Origin: Arabidopsis thaliana
Taxonomy: Eukaryota > Streptophyta > Magnoliopsida > Brassicales > Brassicaceae
Assembly (NCBI RefSeq): GCF_000001735.4
Contig: NC_003074.8
Coordinates: 19,661,261 to 19,725,260, forward strand
DNA: 64,000 nt
Direction of reading: 5' to 3'
The translations under genes were made by a program, and so were the position numbers. The notes under the pieces were generated by a model. It did not search any database. It was not told where the DNA came from and saw only the letters and a program-made list of their open reading frames with translations. Of the stretch, positions 6,673 to 18,012 are shown in pieces. Numbering within the stretch: the first letter of the stretch is position 1; every line of letters starts with the position of its first letter.

Positions 6673-7345
6673 TCACTGGCTGGACTTCCTTATAATTTTG
6701 CCAAAACCGTTATGCCCATATTTTGTACCCCAAGAATTCTGAATTTTCCAGTAGTTGACACCTTCCAGAGTTGTGTCGAAACCAGTCATTAAGACTACAT
6801 GGCCACATGTGCTTGTGTTTTTTCGATTTGTTTGACCATGATAGATTTTGTCATATTCAAAATTTACAAGATATGAAATCAGTTGTAATATGTTTAAAAA
6901 TGAATTATACCAACTACAAATACCACTTACATCTTTACATTCCTTTAAGCTTTCATAAGTATCTATCACAACAAGTAGAGGGCCGTCGTTGACAAGTTAG
7001 ATAAACTCTTCTTCTCTCACTTGTTTGTCTCTCTTATATACCAAATCCTTGATTTTGAATGCAGGTATATCCTATAAGAATTCGTTTATAAGTATGATTA
7101 GTTAAAAATAAATGAAATTTGTAAGAAGACAAGATTTAAAAATGACACTTACATAGTTTTCGGAACTTTTGAGACAGATTTGTTTGAGTTTTCATGAGTA
7201 TGGACAAGTTTTTCTAGAACAAGAACTTGTTTTGTCAAAAACTTTTTGATACTTGCCATAGTTACAGATTTTTCATACATGTTCCTAATATTGTTTATCA
7301 AATGTTGCGGTGATAGTTCAACAACTAGACCTATAAGAGCAAGTC
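6673..7345 (-). pseudogene. Papain-like (C1A) cysteine protease relic
   Basis: Minus-strand remains of a cathepsin-like protease. The 3' part (ORF 6673-6969) contains CGHVVLMTGF, matching the catalytic His block, and YWKIQNSWGTKYGHNGFGKI, matching the catalytic Asn block NSWG and the following GxxGYG/KI motif. Just upstream, LVNDGPLLVVIDTYESLKECKDVSGI matches the segment before the His, but an in-frame TAA interrupts it near 6998. Further upstream, LIGLVVELSPQHLIN resembles the ELSEQxLVDC segment after the active-site Cys. The Cys block itself is not found. A consensus GTAAGT donor near 7153 suggests a former intron. The call rests on visible motifs only; parent gene unknown. Confidence 0.7.
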
Positions 7346-7621
7346 ATGCTTCGATGTGGCACCAACCTAGAGTTTATAAACCCCTAAGCAAAATGAAAAA
7401 ATGTAATTTATAGGAATGAAATAAATTTTCAAATAATAACTTATATCTAAAATATAAAAAGTTATGCAAAATAATTTATAAAATAGTTAGTCACAAAAAT
7501 TGTACAAAACTAAAAAAGTCTTATGTGATTAACTATAACCTATAACCTATTATTTAGGAAACAATTTAAAAATCAATGATATTTACTTATTTTTGCTACT
7601 GAAAATGCAAACCTGTTATTA

Positions 7622-7735
7622 AGTAATCGTAGAAAAGTCAAAAGGATTGTTATTCATTAACTCCCCCAAAAGCCAAGAAGAAGGAGAGTGAGAAATGGAG
7701 AGAAAACTTCACGACCACATTCACATTATAACTCA
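7622..7735 (+). promoter_or_regulatory. Conserved lectin promoter blocks, copy 1
   Basis: Block 1 (7622-7680) begins AGTAATCGTAGAAAAGTCAA and ends GCCAAGAAG. Block 2 (about 7706-7735) reads CTTCACGACCACATTCACAT. A TATA-like TATATAAAAAT follows at 7739-7749. Both blocks recur upstream of other copies in the array. GTCAA in block 1 is a W-box core on the minus strand. Confidence 0.55.
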
Positions 7736-7823
7736 AATGTATATAAAAATTATCCATAAATAGCCTAGTCCTCATTCTCATATTCCTTTTGATTATTAGT
7801 GAGAACACAACACCAACAACAAA

Positions 7824-8328
7824 ATGGGAGACTCACATTGCCGTTGTCTTCATGGCTTTATTTTGCTTGTTGTTCTGTTTCTTTCCTTCGTGTTTAGTTT
7901 CGCTTCAAAGATAGACGTTTCTTTTCACGGAGACGAGAAACGTAGTCTCTCTAGCTCCATTAATTCCTCTCTTAGTGAGTCAGCGGAATACACAATGTGC
8001 GCGACTCATAAAGAGGCTAAGGATGGTAAACCAATCGCATTGGATTTCGATTGCGAACAAGGATATGTTATTTCAAAGATCACTTACGCCGACTATGGCC
8101 AATCCACTGGTAGTTGTGGGAAATTTAAACGCGGTAATTGCGGTGCAAGCAATACCTTAAATATCGTCAACAAGGTATACAAAATCAATCAAAAATACAA
8201 ATTTTCTTTCAAATAGTGTTCTTATTAATTATTATCGTTTGTTTGTGCAGAAATGTCTTAGGAAAGAGAAGTGTAAGTTGTTTGTTCCAGACAAGATTTT
8301 TGGTCCGAGCCACTGCAAGGGAGCTTAA
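7824..8328 (+). CDS. SUEL-type lectin, copy 1, C-terminally truncated
   Basis: Small secreted lectin with a galactose/rhamnose-binding SUEL domain, the module found at the C-terminus of many plant beta-galactosidases. Exons 7824-8174 and 8251-8328 give 142 residues, with a phase-0 intron (76 bases). Residues about 1-28 are a signal peptide. The domain reads YVISKITYADYGQSTGSCGKFKR, then GNCG, then after the junction KCLRKEKCKLFVPDKIFGPSHCKGA and a stop. Intact sisters continue for 12 more residues ending in the eighth cysteine. Here a base lost near 8325 creates the stop, and a second base is missing further on, so Cys8 and its disulphide are lost. The usual NC at the exon junction is KC. May be non-functional. 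Confidence 0.75.
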
Positions 8329-8871
8329 GTCTCGTTATTGACGCTACTTGTAGAAAACTTAGTTTTTTTCTTGTTTTCCAAGTTAAAGTTTCTTTATGTA
8401 ATCGACCTAGTCAAGCTTTTGTTTCCTACTTTACACGTTTGTTACATTTTTTCTCTTTGTTGCAAACCCCAAATGTGTATGTGCCATACAATATCAATCA
8501 TCTTTGCCATATTTTATCGAACTGTTTATAGGTTACTCAATATTTTTCTCCTCAAAAAATGTGAAGACTGACACGTACCAAATCTTTTAAGTGAGAATCA
8601 CAACAAATCACATAAAACACCAACCAATTCCATTCTTTTTCCTCTTTTGACACACTTTAATCCAAATCTGATCAAGTTTTGGGGCCACATTGCAAAATTG
8701 GGGCCCGTTGTAAGTTTTGGTCCCAATCTGAAAATGCATATCCCACCGACTCTGACAATTAGGGCTTATAAATAAACGAGCACATAAGTTCATAACTTGG
8801 TTACTTCATTATTCTTCCATCTTTTTCATCAAATTGCTAAGAGAGTAAAATCGCCCCATAACGAAGTAACC

Positions 8872-9278
8872 ATGTCGAAGAAGATAATCGTGTTGACAAG
8901 CTCCGATGATGATAAAGGGTATGGCAGAAGACGATTGTGCCGATAATGGAATCCCTCTTCCAAACGTGACAAGCAAGATACTCTTATTGGTGATCGAGTA
9001 TTGCAAGAAGCACGTCGTTGAGAGCAAAGAAGAAGATCTAAAGAAGTGGGACGCTGAATTCATGAAGAAGATGGAACAATCGATTCTCTTTGATGTTATG
9101 ATGGCTGCGAATTATCTCAATATCCAAAGCCTTCTTGATCTCACATTTTCAAACTGTCGCTGATTTGCTCTCAGGCAAAACTCCAGGCGAGATTCGCTCA
9201 TACTTCAATATCGAGAACGATTTCACAGCAGAGGGAGAAGCTGAGATCCGCAAGGTGAATCAATGGGCTTTTGAATGA
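8872..9278 (+). pseudogene. ASK6: Broken SKP1-like gene
   Basis: Remnant of an SCF ubiquitin-ligase adaptor related to ASK1. It starts [15 protein letters not shown] at 8872. About 15-18 residues of the BTB/POZ part are then deleted with a frame change near 8912. It continues from 8906 as [21 protein letters not shown], through VIEYCKKHV and [14 protein letters not shown]. One extra T in the run near 9150 shifts the frame. Beyond it the correct C-terminus is still readable: [20 protein letters not shown], then [20 protein letters not shown] and TGA at 9276. The family is normally about 160 residues and intronless. The longest surviving frame (8906-9163) is 85 codons and matches what I recall being annotated as ASK6. 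Without the C-terminal helices it should not bind F-box proteins. Confidence 0.85.
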
Positions 9279-9941
9279 AAGTGGATCTTCAAAGTTCTTT
9301 CTTCTTTAGTGTTTTCGGTTTTCTTGATGCGATGTTAGATGATTACTTCGTCTATTTCTTGTTTGTTCTGTTGTTTCTTTTCTTTTGGTTTCTTGATGCA
9401 TAAGTAAACCAATGTTTGTTGTATCTTTACCCTAGAGACGATCTATTGTTGGATTTTAGTATATGCTAACCAAATCTGAAGATTGATGTTTTTGTTTTTG
9501 AAGCAATTCTTGAATATATGTGAAGTCAAATCCTTCCTTTTTTTTTTCTTATGGTAATTGAAGTTTACTAATCCGAAACTAATTATATGACACTTGAATT
9601 TTGATATTCTATACTTGTATCATAATTAATAATCAAGCAATAAATGCAAATTGTCAAGATTGAACATTCTAAAATAGATAGTGTGAAAATTTGTTGTTCT
9701 CTTTGCGAAATAAAAACAGTTGTTTTAATATTCTCGTAGGAATATGATAAACCTAATTATAGAAAACTTCGCAGCCACATCCGCACACAAATTCGCATCT
9801 CTAAGAAACTTTAATTACTAATATTATCATATATATCAATATCAAAACATTACATATTTATACTTAACTACACGTACTAAACCATCTTAGCATTTTTCAA
9901 CACCCTTCTGATTTAGAAGGGAACGAAAAACTAGAATAAAA
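9279..9941. other. Intergenic, AT-rich
   Basis: No gene is seen. The 3' part is the promoter of lectin copy 2; promoter block 2 is at 9769-9805, but block 1 is not recognisable. Confidence 0.5.
9769..9805 (+). promoter_or_regulatory. Conserved lectin promoter block 2, copy 2
   Basis: Reads CTTCGCAGCCACATCCGCAC followed by ACAAATTCGCATCTC. Clearly shared with copies 3-6. Block 1 (TAATCG...AAAGTCA) is absent or diverged beyond recognition upstream of this copy, which is also the copy with a nonsense codon. Confidence 0.5.
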
Positions 9942-10485
9942 ATGGAAACTACACATTCTCTTCATCGTCATGGCTTCATCGTTTTGCTTCTTCTTTTATC
10001 CGTTTCTTATGTGTCTTGTTTTTATACAAGGAATATCATCAACGGTTCTTATCGTTTAAATCCAAGAGAATATCGACCGAATCAACTGCCAATATGCATT
10101 GATCATCCGGCGCCTAGCGTCGATCTATCGCCCATCTTTTGTGGTGAAGGATATGTTATCTCTGAGATAAAATTCGCCGACTATGGCCAACCCACTGGTG
10201 ACTGTAAGAATAACACGCTTAAACGTGGAAACTGCGGCGCACCCGCTACTTTGAGGCTCGTCAAAAAGGTTTAACTAAACGTATATATATGAATTATCTG
10301 TTTGAAATGAGTACTAATACATCATATCTTATTATTGTTATCTATTGTTATTACTTACGCAGAATTGACTTGGAAAAGAAGAATGTTGGTTTCCAGTGAC
10401 AGACGAGATGTTTGGTCCAACCCATTGTAAAGGACCGGCACTTAGATTCGTTGTTTCCGGTACTTGTAAGAAAAAAGTTACTTAA
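9942..10485 (+). pseudogene. SUEL-type lectin, copy 2, nonsense codon at a core cysteine
   Basis: Exon 1 (9942-10268) encodes a signal peptide and the first half of the SUEL domain (YVISEIKFADYGQPTGDC, then KRGNCGAPATLRLVKK). The intron is 10269-10362. Exon 2 (10363-10485) should open AAT-TGT-CTT-GGA (NCLG), as in the other copies, but reads AAT-TGA-CTT-GGA. The fifth conserved cysteine is therefore a stop at 10366. The rest of exon 2 is otherwise intact and in frame (KEECWFPVTDEMFGPTHCKG, then the final Cys and TAA at 10483). A product stopping there has 110 residues and half a domain. Either a recent pseudogene or a truncated secreted peptide. Confidence 0.75.
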
Positions 10486-11612
10486 AGAATTAGTGATTCT
10501 TGTAACAAATTTTGTCTTCTTCTTCTTTTTTTTTTGTTTATCAAGTAGTTGTTGATCATATTTATGATATATTTTTTTCTTAGTAAAACCTTTTATAGAG
10601 CGCATCATTATGTGTGCTAATTAGGCAATCCACTGAATCAGGCTCTTGTTTCCTATTTGCGTATTTGATTGAACTCTTTTTCTTACCGATTATATATGCA
10701 TAAGAAAGAGTGTTATAATAAAATATGCTATTACCAATTCATCTATGAGAAGATATACCAGCCGACAAAGAGGAACTCCTCGTCTCCGATAGAGGTTCTT
10801 TGCAAATGAAGTTCATGCGAGTAGCTTAAAAGGCTTAAGAAAATTAACAATTCATTAATGCATACCATCGCCATACTTATGTTTTTGAATGCTAACCTAA
10901 TTCAAATGACAATACAATGTCCTTAGTGAAAAAATAAAGCTCCAATAGTACGACTTTGCTTAAAGAAGTAGAGATTGTGAAAAAGCGGTCGATCTAAAGA
11001 ATCCATAACCTGCCAACTTGGTAAGAATCCACTTCAGAAGAAAAAGTTATGTTTCATATAAGAAGAAAATGAGATTAACAAATCTCTAAAAAATATAAAT
11101 CAAACTTTTGTTGGTATTCAAAACCTTAAGAAGAAGATCAATCTTCATGTTCACACCAAACCCACCCTAACAATAAAGCTTATGTATAAGAAGACATATG
11201 ACTTGTCTAATTAAAAACATATTCAAAGTATAATAATACAATCAACTAGGGGAGACAAAAGCCTGAAGATCTATGGGATGTGAAAGCCAATTAGACTATC
11301 TTTTTTAGGAACCAATTAAAATATCTTCTGAAAATGCAAATATGTTTTTTAGTAATCGCGAAAAAGTCAGAATGAATGTCCTTCACCAACATCTCCGAAA
11401 GACAAGAAGTATGGAAAGTGAATAAAGAATAAAAATAAATTAGAACATAGCTAAAAGGAAAAATTGATAGTAAACTTCGTAGCTACATCCGCACACAATT
11501 CGTCTCTATACTAATTTAATCTAACAAGCATATATTTTGAAAACACACCTATATATCTAAGTTGCTTAGAAATTTTCATTATCCTTCTGATTTGTAAGAG
11601 AACAAAAACAAA
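10486..11612. other. Intergenic between lectin copies 2 and 3
   Basis: AT-rich with no recognisable gene or repeat. Ends in the promoter of copy 3. Confidence 0.5.
11351..11512 (+). promoter_or_regulatory. Conserved lectin promoter blocks, copy 3
   Basis: Block 1 at 11351-11409 (AGTAATCGCGAAAAAGTCAG, then CTTCACCAACATCTCCGAAA) and block 2 at about 11475-11512 (CTTCGTAGCTACATCCGCAC). A TATATAT box follows near 11548. Confidence 0.55.
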
Positions 11613-12179
11613 ATGGAAACTTCACATTATTTTCGTCGTCATTGCTTCATCATTTTGCTTCTTGTTATGTTTCTTTCATCGGTTTCTAATCTTGCTTCAA
11701 AAATCAACAACAGTTCTTTTGATGCAAGAGGCACTAAAATCAATAGTGATCCGAAACATATCTCCAATTCAAAGTCCGGAGGATCTCCTCAACGGGACAA
11801 AGAATATCCTCTGTGCGGGTCGAATAACCCGTCAGAGGATGGTATCATATATGCACCTTTTTGCGACAAAGGATATGTTTTTTCTCGAATCAAATTCGCT
11901 GACTATGGTCAGCCCGGTGGTTCATCATGTGAAACGCTTAAACGTGGAAACTGCGGTGCGCCGGCTACTTTGAGACTCGTCAAAGAGGTTAACAAAGTTA
12001 CTCAACATTAGTAATCTTGTTTGACGATAAATCTTCTTATCGATTACTATTTTTTGTTTATGCAGAATTGTCTTGGAAAAGAACGGTGTAGGATTTATAT
12101 TACAGACGAGATGTTTGGGCCGACGCATTGTAAAGGACCTGTTAGCTTCGTTTTTTCTGCTATTTGTAAAAAAACTTGA
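11613..12179 (+). CDS. SUEL-type secreted lectin, copy 3
   Basis: Exons 11613-11987 and 12066-12179 give 162 residues with a phase-0 intron of 78 bases. Residues about 1-29 are a hydrophobic signal peptide (FIILLLVMFLSSVSNLAS). A linker (about 30-65) carries the family motif DARGTKIN. The domain has eight cysteines: PLC, FCDKGYVF, YGQPGGSSC, RGNCGAPATLRLVKE, NCLGKERC, THCKG and a Cys five residues before the stop. The order and spacing match SUEL/rhamnose-binding lectins, where they form four disulphides. No enzyme domain is attached, so it is a stand-alone apoplastic lectin by inference. It looks intact; substrate unknown. Confidence 0.85.
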
Positions 12180-12800
12180 GCTTTCTTATTTCATACGTTA
12201 AGGGAAAGTAATTCTTATAACCTTTTTTTCTTCCCTTTAATGTTTTGATGGATCGCATCATTTTTGTTGTTAATTTACGTAATCCACGGAATTTAATTAT
12301 GATTTTGTTTCCTATATCAACTTTTTTTTTTCTGAATTTATTTTATGAGAAAGAGTATATAGTTTGGAGACTAACTAAATAGCTGACGATATGTTTTACC
12401 GCATATCTGTTCAACTACACAGATTTATGTTTCAAGGAGTGAACTTGTACTCGCCTAAAGATAACAAACTCAACAACGTATTTTCTCTTTCAATATTTCG
12501 GCCAACCCTAGCGGAAATTCAATTTCTTGTACACTGATCCCACTTTTCCTTGAAGATCACTAGCAAATTTCAAAAATTACATAAGGATAACGTATTCACT
12601 TTTTTTTTTTAATTCAAAAGAGTTTCTCCATATTTATCATAACATGTTAACAAAGTGGTTTTAACATATAAATGACCCTTTAACTAGTTATACAACGGAT
12701 TATTTTTATAACTCAGAAAAAGTGACAAACTGATGAATACTTTGAAGTTTGAATAGATACCAGCGGAATAATTTAACGTTAATTAACGTCAAAGTGATAT

Positions 12801-12844
12801 AACACATGCATCATTTCTATTTAACACATGCATCATTTCTATTT
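12801..12844. repeat. 22-base perfect tandem duplication
   Basis: Unit AACACATGCATCATTTCTATTT occurs twice head to tail, at 12801-12822 and 12823-12844. Each unit contains an RY-type CATGCA. Lies about 430 bases upstream of lectin copy 4. Confidence 0.85.
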
Positions 12845-13049
12845 TACCTTTATAGCGAGCATTGATGATTTAATTTGTCGGGAACAAGAGCAAAAAATTA
12901 AGCTTTTTATAACATAATAAACTCTATTAGCAGAGGGCCAGAGACAAAACTGTAATAAGATTGACGAATAATTGTGAAACCAATTAATTAAACTCTCTTT
13001 TGGAAGATTTTTTGTTTTTTTCCCACTGAAAATGGAAAATCTATTAATA

Positions 13050-13172
13050 AGTAATCGTAGAAAAGTCAGAATGATGTCCTTCACCAACACCTCCGAATTC
13101 CAAGAATTAAAAAGAAAAATCGACAGAAAATTTTGCGGACACATTCGCACTCGAATTCACCTCTCCAACAAA
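13050..13172 (+). promoter_or_regulatory. Conserved lectin promoter blocks, copy 4
   Basis: Block 1 at 13050-13106 (AGTAATCGTAGAAAAGTCAG, then CTTCACCAACACCTCCGAA) and block 2 at 13133-13172 (TTGCGGACACATTCGCACTC). A TATATATAA box lies at 13213-13221. The promoter is intact although the coding region is damaged. Confidence 0.55.
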
Positions 13173-13272
13173 CTTTTAATTCTTTAAGTTTCATAGCTTT
13201 TTATTTTTAACCTATATATAACTACATCCGTATACTAGTATGATAATAGCATTTTCACTACCAAAAAAAAAA

Positions 13273-14098
13273 ATGGGAACTACCGATTGTCGTCGTCATG
13301 GCTTCATATTAGTTCTTGTTCTGTTTCTTACCTCTATCTCTTGTTTAGCTTCAAAAATGGACGTTAATTATGATGCCAGAGGCATCAAAATCGAAGTTGG
13401 TCGAAAACATAATCTCTCTGATTCCGTTCCTAACCCTCGTAGTGAGTTTGGGAGTTCTCTTCTAAGTTGGGCAATCAGATTCCAGTTTGTCGTCATCAAA
13501 ACAGGTCTAGGGCCCCTGTATTGATGTTTGATTGCAAAGAGAAAGGATATGTTTTCTCAAAGATCAATTTCGCCGACTATGGCCATTCAAGTGGTGATTG
13601 TGGTAACTTTAGACGCGGCACTTGTGGTGCACCCGATACCTTGAGGCTTGTCAAAAAGGTTCGAAAAATCAACCAACATTAATAGTATGTTAACCTTAGC
13701 ATTTATTGTTTTGTTTGTACCACACAACCACACTAGTTCATTGAGATTTGGTCCTACGTTTTATACGAAATAAGTTTGCGAAAAAACTGATCATGTTCAT
13801 CCATGATTAGTTGGGGTATGGCAAATCCAGACATTAGGTGCCAATTAGAAAACATATTTATAATATATGCACGGAACACCAAACTAAACATATATATGTT
13901 CATTATCTTTGGTTCACCTTTATTCGATAGTGTGATATATAATTATTTCAGTAAATCTTATAAGTATTGTTTGGTGCAGAATTGTCTTGGAAAATGGCAG
14001 TGTATACTTCTTTTGGGAGAAGGGACGAGATGTTTGGTCCGACTCATTGCAAGAGTCCTCCTTGGTTCGTTGTTGAAGCTACTTGTACAAAAACTTAG
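13273..14098 (+). pseudogene. SUEL-type lectin, copy 4, frameshifted
   Basis: Starts MGTTDCRRHGFILVLVLFLT at 13273 with signal peptide and linker (DARGIKIEVGRK). A frame change of one base near 13445-13465 moves the rest of exon 1 into another frame, where it reads CKEKGYVFSKINFADYGHSS, then RRGTCGAPDTLRLVKK, ending at 13658. The intron (13659-13979) is 321 bases against 76-98 in the other copies. Exon 2 from 13980 opens NCLGKWQC, then shifts frame again near 14015-14025 before the MFGPTHCK region, and ends in the family position (TAG at 14096). At least two independent frame breaks make it a pseudogene. Confidence 0.8.
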
Positions 14099-15263
14099 GT
14101 TTCTACTGCTTAAGCGATTCTTTATCGTTTCACTCTTTCCTCGCTTTGATCAAAGTTTGTTGTTAATCATACTAGGGCTCGTAGTTTCTGCAAAATCGTG
14201 GAAAATTTTGTCGTATAATTATGATTCGTTAGATCAACTTTATACATTTTTGATTCATATTTGTCACCAGTAATGTCATATATCCTAATATTTTTGATAT
14301 TTCTTATGTACAACAGATTTGTATCATTATATAGTTGGGAAATAAGTTTACTAAAACAAAAATCCCACAAAAAATAATGAATTAGTTATTTCAATAGAAA
14401 TACAAGAACTAATCACACTTTAAAAAAAATACACAAAAAAAGAAAATTTTCTATATTTTTTTTTTTTATCACCATCGTTGCATTCATTTTACCATTAACA
14501 TACAACACATAATTGTCCTATGATGTTAATTTTCTCCTTAAAACTTAACTATGAGTTAATATTTAACCCACATCCATTAGCTCAAGCTTAAAATTGGAGA
14601 AATGTCTGAAATCAAGAATCCAAAATTTTGTTATTGTTGAAGCTCGAAAAAAAAACATAAAGAGAAAGAATTAAGCTTGAAGAAATCAAGCTCATTGCGA
14701 AGAGTGTATTTTGAGTGTGAGGAAAATATGAATCGTATCAAAATCGTTTTATTTATTTATTGAAAGCTCATGTACAAGGAGAATGAGAACATGCTTCTAC
14801 AGTTTTTGTCAGTATAAATTGGTAATTATTTGAGTACTTTGTGTATTTTTATGGAATAGCTAAATACTTTATATGTTTTTATATTTTTTTTTGACATGAC
14901 ATAAGTAAATATCTAACAAAAATAAATTCTCAAATTTGAGTCTCTATATAAAAATAAAACCAATAAGCAAAAAATATTAAAATCTAAAAACCAATGGAGA
15001 ATTAAACTGTCTTCTACTAACAAACCCTTATTTCTTTTTCTTCTTCACTTAATTAAAAATAGTAAATGTATTATTAGATAATCGTGGAAAAGTCAGAAGG
15101 AATGTCTCTCCCCTACACCTCCGAAAACCAAGAAATACGAGATTTGAAAAATAGAAATACAAATTGATAGAAAATGTTAGGGCCACATCTACTCACGAAT
15201 ACGCATCTCCAAAGTAGCATACTTAACAATTTCCTTATCCTTGATTATGAGAATAGAAAAATA
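14099..15263. other. Intergenic between lectin copies 4 and 5
   Basis: Very AT-rich with homopolymer runs (for example T-run 14457-14467). No gene or clear transposon seen. The copy 5 promoter blocks start at 15076. Confidence 0.5.
15076..15213 (+). promoter_or_regulatory. Conserved lectin promoter blocks, copy 5
   Basis: Block 1 at 15076-15134 (AGATAATCGTGGAAAAGTCA, then ACACCTCCGAAAACCAAGAA) and block 2 at about 15178-15213 (GGGCCACATCTACTCACGAA, then TACGCATCTCCAAAG). Block 2 ends only about 50 bases before the start codon. Confidence 0.55.
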
Positions 15264-15844
15264 ATGAAAACTTCACATACTTTTCGTCGTCGTAATGGCT
15301 TCGTTTTGCTTCTTGTTCTGATTCATTTTTCTGTGTTTGGTTTCTCTTCAAATATCGATGTTTCTTATAGAGCAAGAGGCATCAAAATCAACGGTGACCA
15401 AAAACGTGTTCTCTCGAATTCCAATCACCCTCGCAGCGATTTTCGGAAATCTCTTCAACATGGAAAGGAACATTCAGCATGTACGAATCATAAATCTGTT
15501 CGAGGTCCAATAACGCGTATTTTTTGCCAAGACGGATATGTTATCACCAATATCAATTTTGCCGACTATGGAAATCCCACTGGTACATGTGAACACTTTA
15601 GACACGGCAAATGCGGCGCACCAGCTACTTTGAGGCTTGTCAAAAAGGTTAGCAGAATTAACTAGCGTTAATATGTTATGTTGGTTTTCTTGTCAATGAA
15701 TCTTATCGTACGTTGGCATTGTTTATGCAGAATTGCCTTGGAAAACCGAAGTGTGTATTTTTAGTGACGGATGAGATGTTTGGTCCGAGCCATTGCAAGG
15801 GACCTCCTACACTCGCGGTTGACGCCACTTGTACAAAAACCTAG
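15264..15844 (+). CDS. SUEL-type secreted lectin, copy 5
   Basis: Exons 15264-15647 and 15731-15844 give 165 residues, with an 83-base phase-0 intron at the family position (LVKK / NCLGK). Signal peptide about 1-32 (GFVLLLVLIHFSVFGFSS). The linker contains ARGIKINGDQKR, closely matched in copies 4 and 6. The SUEL domain from about residue 75 has eight cysteines: SACTN, FCQDGYVI, GTC, GKCGAPATLRLVKK, NCLGKPKC, SHCKG and the final ATC. It ends VDATCTKT. The ATG at 15264 is preferred over an upstream in-frame TTG because it sits where the sister proteins start. Appears intact. Confidence 0.85.
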
Positions 15845-16752
15845 GTTTCTTATTCCTACTTAAGATTTTTGTTATAGAGATTGTTTTTTTTTTCTCTTTC
15901 TCTCGTTTCAATCAAGTTGGTGTTGGTCATTGTATTTTTCAAATTTCAAAACATAAGCAAAGTTAGCAAACCAAGCTTTTGCGTTACATGTACAATCCTA
16001 TACAAACTCGATTGACGCTTACGTAACGTTTGTGCATGTATACACCATAATCGTCAATGGGACAAATGTTTTGGAAAATGTTAGTTTTACCAACACAAGC
16101 TAGAAAAGTTAGCCTGACACATTCCCTAGCTAACATTAGAACAACTAGATAGACTAATAATAAAACTAAGGAAATAATTCAAAATAATGAATATAATTGT
16201 GAAATCTAGTTATAGAGGTAACTGGATTTCAATCCCAATTTTGAAATCATTTATTTCGTATATATAGTACATTATAATTATCATTAGTTGGGTGGGAATG
16301 TAAGAACACAAATGAGCTGTCATGAGATACATAAATTAATGGATAATATTCTGACATTTATACAACAATAAAACACTTAGCAGAGGCATAATTCTCTAAA
16401 ATTTAACTAACAGCTAGAGATAACTGTGAAACAAATTAAACTCATCACGTCTATGAAAATAGAAAATGTTACTAATTCCTTCTCTTTCACTGGAGAATTA
16501 AAACTATTAATAAATAATCGTGGAAAAGTCAACAGGAATGCCTTTCACCAAACTCCTCCGAAAACCAAGAGAATGGAAAAATATAGAACTACATTGAGAG
16601 GAAATTTCGTGGCCACATTTACAAACGAATTCGCCTCTCCAAAGTTTGATTAATCTAAGTTTAACGAAAGCAAAAGTGTAACTACATCCATAAGAAGTCT
16701 ACTTAAACAAATGTCAATACCTTGATTTTGATAACATAAAACAAAAACAAAA
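15845..16752. other. Intergenic between lectin copies 5 and 6
   Basis: AT-rich, no gene seen. Contains the copy 6 promoter blocks (16513-16643). Confidence 0.5.
16513..16643 (+). promoter_or_regulatory. Conserved lectin promoter blocks, copy 6
   Basis: Block 1 at 16513-16570 (AATAATCGTGGAAAAGTCAA, then CTCCTCCGAAAACCAAGAG) and block 2 at about 16606-16643 (CGTGGCCACATTTACAAACG, then AATTCGCCTCTCCAAAG). Closest to copy 5. Confidence 0.55.
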
Positions 16753-17318
16753 ATGGAAACTTTACAATGTCGTCATCAGCATGTCTTCATTTTGCTTCTT
16801 GTCCTATTTCATTCCTCTCTGTTTGGTTTAGCTTCAAAGATCGATGTTTCTGACGATGCACGAGGCATCAGAATCGACGGTGGCCAGAAACGTTTTCTAA
16901 CTAATTCTCCTCAACATGGCAAGGAACATGCAGCGTGTACGAACGAAGAACCTGATCTCGGTCCGCTGACGCGTATTTCTTGCAATGAACCTGGATATGT
17001 TATTACAAAGATCAATTTCGCTGATTATGGCAATCCCACTGGTACATGTGGACACTTTAGACGTGGCAATTGCGGTGCACGAGCTACCATGAGGATCGTC
17101 AAAAAGGTTAAAAAAATAAGCTAACAAAAATCAACATTAACGTGTGTATAGTTAATACTAATAGATATTTTTATGAGTCTTATAGTTAGTAATGATTTGT
17201 GCAGAATTGTCTTGGAAAAGAGAAGTGTCACCTTTTGGTTACGGATGAGATGTTTGGTCCGAGCAAGTGCAAAGGAGCTCCTATGCTCGCTGTTGAAACC
17301 ACTTGTACAATAGCTTAG
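16753..17318 (+). CDS. SUEL-type secreted lectin, copy 6
   Basis: Exons 16753-17106 and 17205-17318 give 155 residues, with a 98-base phase-0 intron. Signal peptide about 1-27 (VFILLLVLFHSSLFGLAS). The linker holds DDARGIRIDGGQKR. The SUEL domain has eight cysteines: AACTN, ISCNEPGYVI, GTC, RGNCGARATMRIVKK, NCLGKEKC, SKCKG and ETTC near the C-terminus, which ends TIA. Like copies 3 and 5 it has no catalytic partner domain. Reading into the intron would give a short truncated tail (VKKIS and stop). Appears intact. Confidence 0.85.
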
Positions 17319-18012
17319 GTTTCATCATATATTGCCTGCCCCTATATAGAGAGATTTCTTCAAGTGTATTGTTTTTGTTCATCTTTTCTCGTTTTGGTCA
17401 AGCTGTTGTTTAGAGTTTCTTTGATGCATGGATCTATATGTTGTCGTCTTGTCGATTATGTTTCAAGTGCTTTAATTTTACATAATCAATGTAGTCATGT
17501 TTTTGTTTCAACGCAGACATTAATGGTTTACTATCACTTTTTTAAATATGGAAGTATATCCATGGTGAATTTTACGAATCAAACTCAAGATTGATTATAA
17601 GAGTCAGTACTTCACTCTATTTTATACTCAACGTTAGCACTTGGCAGTGCATAGATCCCACATTTATTAAGTCAATTTTCTTATTACTAATCTAGATGGG
17701 TTAACATGCAATTATGGAAATTGTCAAAAAAAATTATCCTTAGATTGGTTTGGGAAAAAAGAAAAAAAAAACAATTATGGTAAAGTAAAAAATGAAGAAG
17801 ATATTAATGACTTATTAAGTTCAATTATGACTTAAAAGCTGACGTCATAAAGAACTGGTTGGAGTTCTACGAAGAAGTAGTTTCGAATCCTTGACGTCAA
17901 CCTAAAGCCAATACGAAGAAGAAGAAGAAGAAGAAGAAGAAGAAGAAGAAGAAGAAGAAGAAGAAGATCGTGAGCCACTATATTCGCTTCCTTCCTCTAA
18001 TTTCCGATTCCA
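17319..18012. other. Intergenic and UPL7 leader
   Basis: AT-rich region downstream of the lectin array. Two TGACGTCA-like motifs (TGACGTCA at 17839-17846, TTGACGTCAA at 17891-17900) lie just upstream of the GAA repeat. No gene seen. Confidence 0.5.
17915..17967 (+). repeat. (GAA)n microsatellite, about 17 units
   Basis: Uninterrupted GAA triplets for about 53 bases, ending 45 bases before the UPL7 start codon, so probably in its 5' untranslated leader. GAA repeats are common in Arabidopsis leaders and are length-variable between accessions. Confidence 0.9.

Follow-up and report, generated by a model that had tools for sequence, protein, structure and literature searches.

Six head-to-tail genes of Arabidopsis thaliana, found in a window of 64,000 nucleotides (the whole stretch of DNA that was analysed), are likely, though by no means certain, to descend from a beta-galactosidase gene from which the enzyme was deleted, and to form an old tandem family of pollen-coat proteins without the usual sugar pocket.

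The first-pass annotation had placed six copies at 7824-17318 of the forward strand, and all six ATGs were found where it had put them. Three copies are intact: copy 3 (exon 1 11613-11987, intron 11988-12065, exon 2 12066-12179; 162 aa), copy 5 (exon 1 15264-15647, intron 15648-15730, exon 2 15731-15844; 165 aa) and copy 6 (exon 1 16753-17106, intron 17107-17204, exon 2 17205-17318; 155 aa). Their spliced frames are open and encode eight cysteines downstream of a hydrophobic leader. The leader was observed directly, and from it we infer that the array proteins are secreted, as had been claimed. The other three copies are broken, by the lesions described earlier. In copy 1 (exon 1 7824-8174, intron 8175-8250, exon 2 8251-8328) a premature TAA at 8326-8328 removes the eighth and last cysteine of the domain. 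Copy 2 (exon 1 9942-10268, intron 10269-10362, exon 2 10363-10485) carries a TGA at 10366-10368 in place of the fifth domain cysteine of the other copies, and copy 4 (exon 1 13273-13658, a long intron 13659-13979, exon 2 13980-14098) has its reading frame broken once in exon 1 and once in exon 2. Whether an alternative splice acceptor could restore copy 2 was considered and rejected: only two of the nine AGs in its exon 2 are in frame, and splicing at them would cost the protein either domain cysteines 5 and 6 or almost all of the exon.

Copies 1, 2, 3, 5 and 6 were tested against the Pfam profile SUEL_Lectin (PF02140; curated cut-off 31.4 bits). Copies 1, 3, 5 and 6 scored 53.0, 54.2, 59.9 and 63.0 bits, respectively, and copy 2, read up to its stop, scored 27.1 bits, under the cut-off. 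When copy 5 was used as the query against the whole genome, the other five copies were recovered (the best match being exon 1 of copy 6, E 4.6e-40); hence, chance resemblance among the copies is excluded. Whole-genome searches found no dispersed relatives of the array and no other stand-alone SUEL locus. The ten other SUEL genes found in the genome all have GH35 matches upstream. In a tree of SUEL domains the array copies were monophyletic, with a support of 100/100. The copies also have a promoter block in common, which includes the proximal 250 bp 5' of copy 1 (7574..7823, forward strand) and of copy 5 (15014..15263, forward strand). That this block might be an element of other genes was rejected, as two upstream queries matched places in the array only.

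All six copies contain a GT-AG intron at an equivalent codon, as the first-pass annotation had stated. It is not a special mark of the array. The same ancestral SUEL intron, by its GT boundary, lies at this codon in eight of the ten SUEL galactosidases of the genome; its acceptor and exon 2 were found by script in six of these genes and read by eye from the frames in two.

Between the leader and the SUEL domain, copies 4 and 5 have a stretch of about 27 residues that resembles the N-terminus of GH35 beta-galactosidases and is probably a vestige of it (copy 5: 15360..15437, residues 33-58; copy 4: 13363..13443, residues 31-57; both on the forward strand). For either copy, none of 3000 shuffles scored as high. 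In copy 6 the stretch is shortened and weaker (16846..16890, forward strand, residues 32-46; 18 of 3000 shuffles as high), and for copies 1, 2 and 3, taken singly, the resemblance was no better than that of shuffles (812, 212 and 546 of 3000 as high). A Pfam search of the linkers of copies 4, 5 and 6 gave no GH35 call; a real galactosidase N-terminus was also below the threshold.

Such a resemblance might have arisen by chance or by convergence behind a signal peptide, a signal-peptide exon having simply been joined to a SUEL exon. The stretch is short, and it is significant singly in copies 4 and 5 only. When all six frames of the window were scanned, copy 5 ranked first among 1178 ORFs, yet with an E of only 0.073; copy 4 ranked fourth (E 0.22), and two other ORFs reached 8.5 and 7.6 bits. 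Against this, an hhalign comparison of the linker of copies 3-6 with 15 galactosidase N-termini gave a probability of 91.8% and a P of 7.5e-7 over 28 columns. When scored with the array profile, 10 of the 15 N-termini beat all of their 1000 shuffles, and the remaining five were matched by 1, 2, 2, 5 and 11 of 1000. Pairwise, copy 5 beat 2000 shuffles with 11 of the 15 N-termini, and copy 4 with 13. The resemblance is moreover in the same location, directly behind the leader. Chance or convergence is thus unlikely. It may be noted that the hhalign match stops within a few codons of the apparent end of galactosidase exon 1.

The earlier statement that the genes have no attached beta-galactosidase holds for the GH35 catalytic domain, which was absent from the three intact proteins (Pfam, E up to 1; SUEL only). 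Some beta-galactosidase sequence nevertheless probably remains in the genes, as the N-terminal vestige seems to persist. Given the GH35-like stretch together with the galactosidase intron codon, they look like galactosidases from which the enzyme has been deleted, and the sequences point to derivation of the array from a SUEL-type galactosidase via internal deletion. In this reading the parent was a GH35 beta-galactosidase gene that ended in a SUEL domain; its catalytic and middle parts would have been lost, and the signal peptide, about 27 GH35 N-terminal residues, the SUEL domain and the ancestral intron within that domain would have been kept. The reduced gene would then have been tandemly duplicated long ago, together with a promoter of about 250 bp. 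Like the array, the plant SUEL galactosidases (rice OsBGal1, 5iaz, and the ten considered here) have a SUEL domain, a leader and a GH35-like N-terminus; the array differs from them in lacking the catalytic and middle domains and the lysine at C7+5, and in its shorter loop 2 (copies 3-6).

The SUEL tree was also tried as a means of finding the parent galactosidase, and was rejected for this purpose, as the neighbour of the array shifted and support was low. With ten galactosidases the neighbour was the gene that we take, from its map position, to be BGAL9 (support 44); with seven of the ten it was BGAL7/15, named on the same assumption (support 36).

Ks between the copies was 0.39-1.05. The tandem duplications are old, and a recent burst of duplication is ruled out. 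Of the birth-and-death evolution proposed earlier, some deaths do look recent, but the births do not. The loss of copy 2 looks recent because omega on its branch is still 0.12 for the SUEL domain, which otherwise looks constrained. Estimated jointly, omega for copies 3, 5 and 6 was 0.386 (2dlnL 27.98 against omega = 1), and for their SUEL domain alone 0.33. Over the whole length omega = 1 was also rejected singly for copy 3 (2dlnL 18.07), copy 5 (4.86) and copy 6 (5.29). The Ka/Ks check suggested for these copies thus indicates purifying selection. It might still be argued that the array is in decay as a whole, with the family disappearing from a selfing plant and the intact copies surviving by chance; half of the six copies are broken, and the terminal omegas of copies 1 and 4 (0.64 and 0.74) are not distinguishable from 1. 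The rejection of omega = 1 by every intact copy, and the presence of three SUEL proteins in the Col-0 pollen coat according to the published counts (PMC9856046), make this very unlikely.

The description of the family as carbohydrate-binding found no support in the sequence. Glu42 and Lys120 are described as essential for sugar binding by latrophilin-1 RBL, and the changes reported for them, even conservative ones, reduced binding dramatically or abolished it. The loop 2 lysine (latrophilin Lys120, C7+5) was present in all ten galactosidase SUEL domains of the genome and in none of the five readable array copies (copy 1 ends before C7+5 and was left out). The glutamate next to the first cysteine (+1; latrophilin Glu42) was absent from all six copies, which have A, I, G, R, T and T, in order, at this position. 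Loop 2 is shorter by one residue in copies 3-6, and the arginine after the YG motif is replaced by Q, N or H. With the lysine and glutamate missing and loop 2 shortened in copies 3-6, the array proteins probably do not use the usual pocket to bind galactose or rhamnose. Loss of the canonical pocket is compatible with another glycan site.

The proteins might still act in the pollen coat or apoplast as true lectins, in which a reshaped loop 2 binds a different sugar and serves pollen adhesion or antimicrobial defence. The intact copies retain the SUEL profile and all eight cysteines, the tyrosine of the YG motif is kept in six of six copies, and among solved structures the best match is to an L-rhamnose-binding lectin from an animal (5h4s, E 1.4e-18). 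The residues of the known site tell against this, as does the SUEL domain of the rice galactosidase, for which binding to none of the five sugars tried is reported; we consider true lectins rather unlikely. The rice domain retains the loop 2 lysine, which limits the weight of the lysine contrast. The array resembles the animal rhamnose-binding lectins (5h4s, CSL3 2zx0, latrophilin-1 RBL) in its domain profile and eight-cysteine pattern. It differs from them in the absence of the glutamate after the first cysteine and of the loop 2 lysine; it also has a single domain, compared with three matched stretches in 5h4s and two in CSL3.

Of the two roles suggested in the first-pass annotation, pollination is favoured over defence by a pollen-coat proteome (PMC9856046). 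In its Table 1, SUEL proteins number three for A. thaliana (Col-0), three for A. lyrata and five for B. oleracea, with one galactosidase among them, in A. lyrata. The three Col-0 proteins may be set beside the array, the only stand-alone SUEL locus found. The table and the passages used give counts without locus names, and we infer that the Col-0 trio corresponds to copies 3, 5 and 6. According to the same passages the pollen-coat SUEL proteins, like those of the array, combine the SUEL domain with a signal peptide. The passages describe neither an origin nor a binding site, and the array residues tell against the protein-carbohydrate recognition proposed in them.

Secretion to the pollen coat, and not a role as defence lectins, is the best reading for the array proteins. 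They would most likely be secreted onto the pollen coat from the anther tapetum, a source that we propose. Their more likely role would be that of disulfide-stabilised coat proteins or pollen-stigma ligands, and the partner may be a protein or a different glycan. A narrower version is possible but doubtful: a family of pollen-coat recognition proteins would have arisen from a galactosidase gene that had lost its enzyme and retained the leader and the SUEL domain; the fold would subsequently have lost the sugar pocket and been put to new use as a protein ligand, stabilised by its cysteines, that meets a partner on the stigma, and copies would be gained and lost from one species to the next. As described in the passages used (PMC9856046, PMC2829037), the pollen-coat proteins PCP-B, SCR/SP11 and LCR are likewise secreted, cysteine-rich and duplicated, the pollen-coat site being presumed for the array; the array differs in retaining a recognisable SUEL domain.

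The array would thus show, in a specific instance, how removal of the catalytic body from an enzyme gene can give rise to a new family of secreted proteins, with a scar that apparently can still be read. The label 'galactoside/rhamnose-binding lectin', on which one pollen-coat study based its proposal of protein-carbohydrate recognition on the stigma, has no backing from the binding residues here. Both the origin by enzyme deletion and the lectin label are open to testing in Arabidopsis Col-0.

Six copies make up the array, starting at positions 7824, 9942, 11613, 13273, 15264 and 16753 (copies 1–6) of the window (C3:19661261–19725260), in a region that we take to be At3g53050–At3g53080. A single intron interrupts each copy, bounded by GT and AG at the equivalent codon throughout. 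In five copies exon 1 stops at a codon boundary; in copy 4 a frame break shifts its length. Splicing yields open proteins of 162, 165 and 155 amino acids for copies 3, 5 and 6, each with eight cysteines past residue 30. An early TAA terminates the frame of copy 1, a TGA replaces the fifth domain cysteine in copy 2, and copy 4 contains frame breaks, one per exon. The starts, the intron and the lesions in copies 1, 2 and 4 had all been reported in the first-pass annotation and were borne out. A strongly hydrophobic stretch was present near the N terminus of all six copies (best 12-residue mean hydropathy 2.41–3.32), and no comparable stretch was found past residue 30 in any of them (12-residue mean at most 1.30). 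The introns are 76–98 bases long in five copies; that of copy 4 (13659–13979; 321 bases) is three to four times longer, possibly owing to an insertion. A papain-family protease fragment lies just upstream of the array (6673–6996, minus strand; PF00112, 40.9 bits, profile positions 155–206 of 220), and copy 6 is followed downstream by a run of GAA trinucleotides (17915–17966). Between copies 1 and 2 lies an SKP1-like gene (8873–9278, plus strand), presumably ASK6, that seems broken: its frame lacks the first 28 Skp1_POZ positions, and the Skp1 dimerisation domain is in a different frame. ASK6 is argued to be functional in a passage of PMC3511428.

Copies 1, 2 (up to its stop), 3, 5 and 6 were scored against PF02140 (cut-off 31.4 bits), copy 4 being left out. 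Copies 1, 3, 5 and 6 gave 53.0, 54.2, 59.9 and 63.0 bits, and copy 2 fell under the cut-off with 27.1. The best solved relative was an L-rhamnose-binding lectin (5h4s, E 1.4e-18), followed by rice beta-galactosidase 1 (5iaz, E 2.4e-14). In the genome (119.66 Mb, seven contigs) there were at least 15 PF02140 matches, 2 inside the window and 13 across at least 10 other genes; these counts are lower bounds, only the best candidates having been scored. Each of 10 other PF02140 genes had GH35 matches no more than about 6 kb away on its own strand. Since this search reads exon by exon and picked up only two exon pieces of the array, it could overlook a divergent stand-alone gene. Protein searches of the genome with copies 5 and 3 returned, among the matches listed, nothing beyond the array and the SUEL galactosidases.

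The linker between the hydrophobic leader and the SUEL domain was compared with galactosidase N-termini. The genome has at least 18 GH35 loci, 17 of which were retrieved; a profile was built from the 15 with an H[YF]PR motif in the first-exon reading, the motif being absent there from the GH35 loci L054 and L055. Copies 5 and 4 scored 10.8 and 8.1 bits, each higher than all 3000 shuffles. Copy 6 scored 2.9 bits (equalled by 18 of 3000), and the scores of copies 2, 3 and 1 were equalled by 212, 546 and 812. In a scan of 1178 window ORFs, copy 5 came first (E 0.073) and copy 4 fourth (E 0.22); the two ORFs ranked between them (8.5 and 7.6 bits) include one antisense inside copy 4. In the reverse test, with a profile of copies 3–6, 10 of the 15 galactosidase N-termini exceeded all 1000 of their own shuffles, and the other five were equalled by 1, 2, 2, 5 and 11. 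Pairwise, copy 5 stood above 2000 shuffles for 11 of the 15 N-termini and copy 4 for 13; at worst, 45 of 2000 shuffles scored as high. Alignment of the two profiles by hhalign gave a probability of 91.8% (P 7.5e-7, 28 columns). Pfam made no GH35 call in the linkers; a real galactosidase N-terminus also reached only 21.8 bits (cut-off 27).

Counted from where the ADYG motif begins, the array intron lies at 29 codons in copies 1, 4, 5 and 6 and at 30 and 31 in copies 3 and 2, which have small insertions. A GT occurs at codon 29 past ASFG/ASYG in 8 of 10 SUEL galactosidases. The remaining two, L046 and L053, which we take to be BGAL7 and BGAL15, have no intron at this position; their first-to-second cysteine spacing is short, as in the array. 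In the SUEL tree the array is monophyletic (support 100/100) on a long stem, and no galactosidase was placed as its sister with good support. The short vestige and the intron position suggest that a SUEL galactosidase lost whatever had separated its first exon from the SUEL portion. If a signal-peptide exon had instead been joined to a SUEL exon, the GH35 likeness would be due to chance or convergence. The hhalign match runs to PRS, a few codons before galactosidase exon 1 seems to end; this shortfall slightly favours such a coincidence, which, set against the hhalign and shuffle results, we regard as improbable. Descent from a SUEL-type GH35 galactosidase, with products probably in the pollen coat and canonical sugar binding unlikely, is as a whole a fairly likely account.

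Nei–Gojobori Ks between copies ranged from 0.39 (copies 5 and 6) to 1.05, with Ka/Ks of 0.41–0.76 over the whole length. The tree used for the codon model had low support (70, 96, 37). With all six copies, ω was 0.45 over the whole length (2ΔlnL 44.4 against ω = 1); leader plus linker gave 0.58 (10.3) and SUEL gave 0.35 (35.2). The Ka/Ks check proposed earlier for the intact copies gave a value not near 1: copies 3, 5 and 6 had ω 0.386 (27.98), with 0.446 for leader plus linker (9.91) and 0.331 for SUEL (18.2). Taken singly, ω = 1 was not rejected for copy 6 SUEL (1.41) or copy 5 leader plus linker (0.3). Giving the three broken copies their own rate (0.58 vs 0.37 for the rest) did not improve the fit significantly (3.19); their branches jointly reject ω = 1 (8.09), and copies 1 and 4 singly (0.64 and 0.74) were indistinguishable from 1. 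The copy 2 branch had ω 0.40 overall and 0.12 in SUEL, both rejecting 1 (7.8 and 11.5), and 0.87 in leader plus linker, where 1 was not rejected (0.11). Judged by Ks, the copies are old; the ω of its branch makes a recent loss of copy 2 probable.

Over the 250 bp preceding each ATG, mean identity was 64% (shuffle mean 42%). Values close to shuffles were obtained at 250–500 bp (45% vs 43%) and 500–750 bp (40% vs 41%). Introns of five copies, copy 4 excluded, gave 61% vs 44%, single shuffled pairs reaching 66%, and the 200 bp downstream gave 49% vs 42%. As the likeness is concentrated in the proximal 250 bp, each copy carries a short promoter common to all. Upstream blocks of copies 4 and 6, used as genome queries, matched at array places only.

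In the latrophilin-1 RBL domain, a Glu after the first cysteine and a loop 2 Lys are both required, and the substitutions tried, even conservative ones, strongly cut or abolished binding, according to passages of PMC2430599. The Lys position, five residues past the seventh cysteine, is occupied by Lys in all 10 galactosidase SUEL domains of the genome but in none of the five array copies that can be read there (copies 2–6 have L, S, W, T and M; copy 1 is cut off). By alignment, loop 2 is one residue shorter in copies 3–6. Directly behind the first domain cysteine, copies 1–6 have A, I, G, R, T and T; the Glu, read by eye, is also missing from all 10 galactosidases. According to a passage of the flax paper PMC8121149, NMR revealed no binding of the rice domain to rhamnose, galactose, glucose, galactobiose or raffinose, and one in the rice paper PMC13070324 restates that binding was not found. 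By alignment the rice domain retains the loop 2 Lys; the pocket may therefore already have been idle when the array originated, and loss of the Lys could be a consequence, not a cause. Because of this retained Lys and the vestige ending short of the exon, our confidence in the galactosidase account was lowered slightly and chance resemblance was given slightly more weight. The carbohydrate-binding role suggested in the first-pass annotation is thus weakened by the missing Lys and Glu and by the rice result; either way, "lectin" names a fold and not a demonstrated activity. A limited check of titles, abstracts and passages found no published mention of the GH35 vestige, of the pocket Lys being lost specifically in the array, or of copy 2 having been lost late.

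The gene table of a MaRAP2-4 study includes AT3G53080 with a value of 3.14 (PMC5785340). In passages and Table 1 of PMC9856046, which used Col-0 plants, three A. thaliana SUEL proteins were counted in the pollen coat; across three species there were ten SUEL proteins with a signal peptide and one SUEL galactosidase (A. lyrata). No locus name starting AT3G530 occurs in its main text. The three pollen-coat proteins would fit the three intact array genes. Of the two roles suggested at first, defence is weakened, and a part in pollination is strengthened by this putative match.
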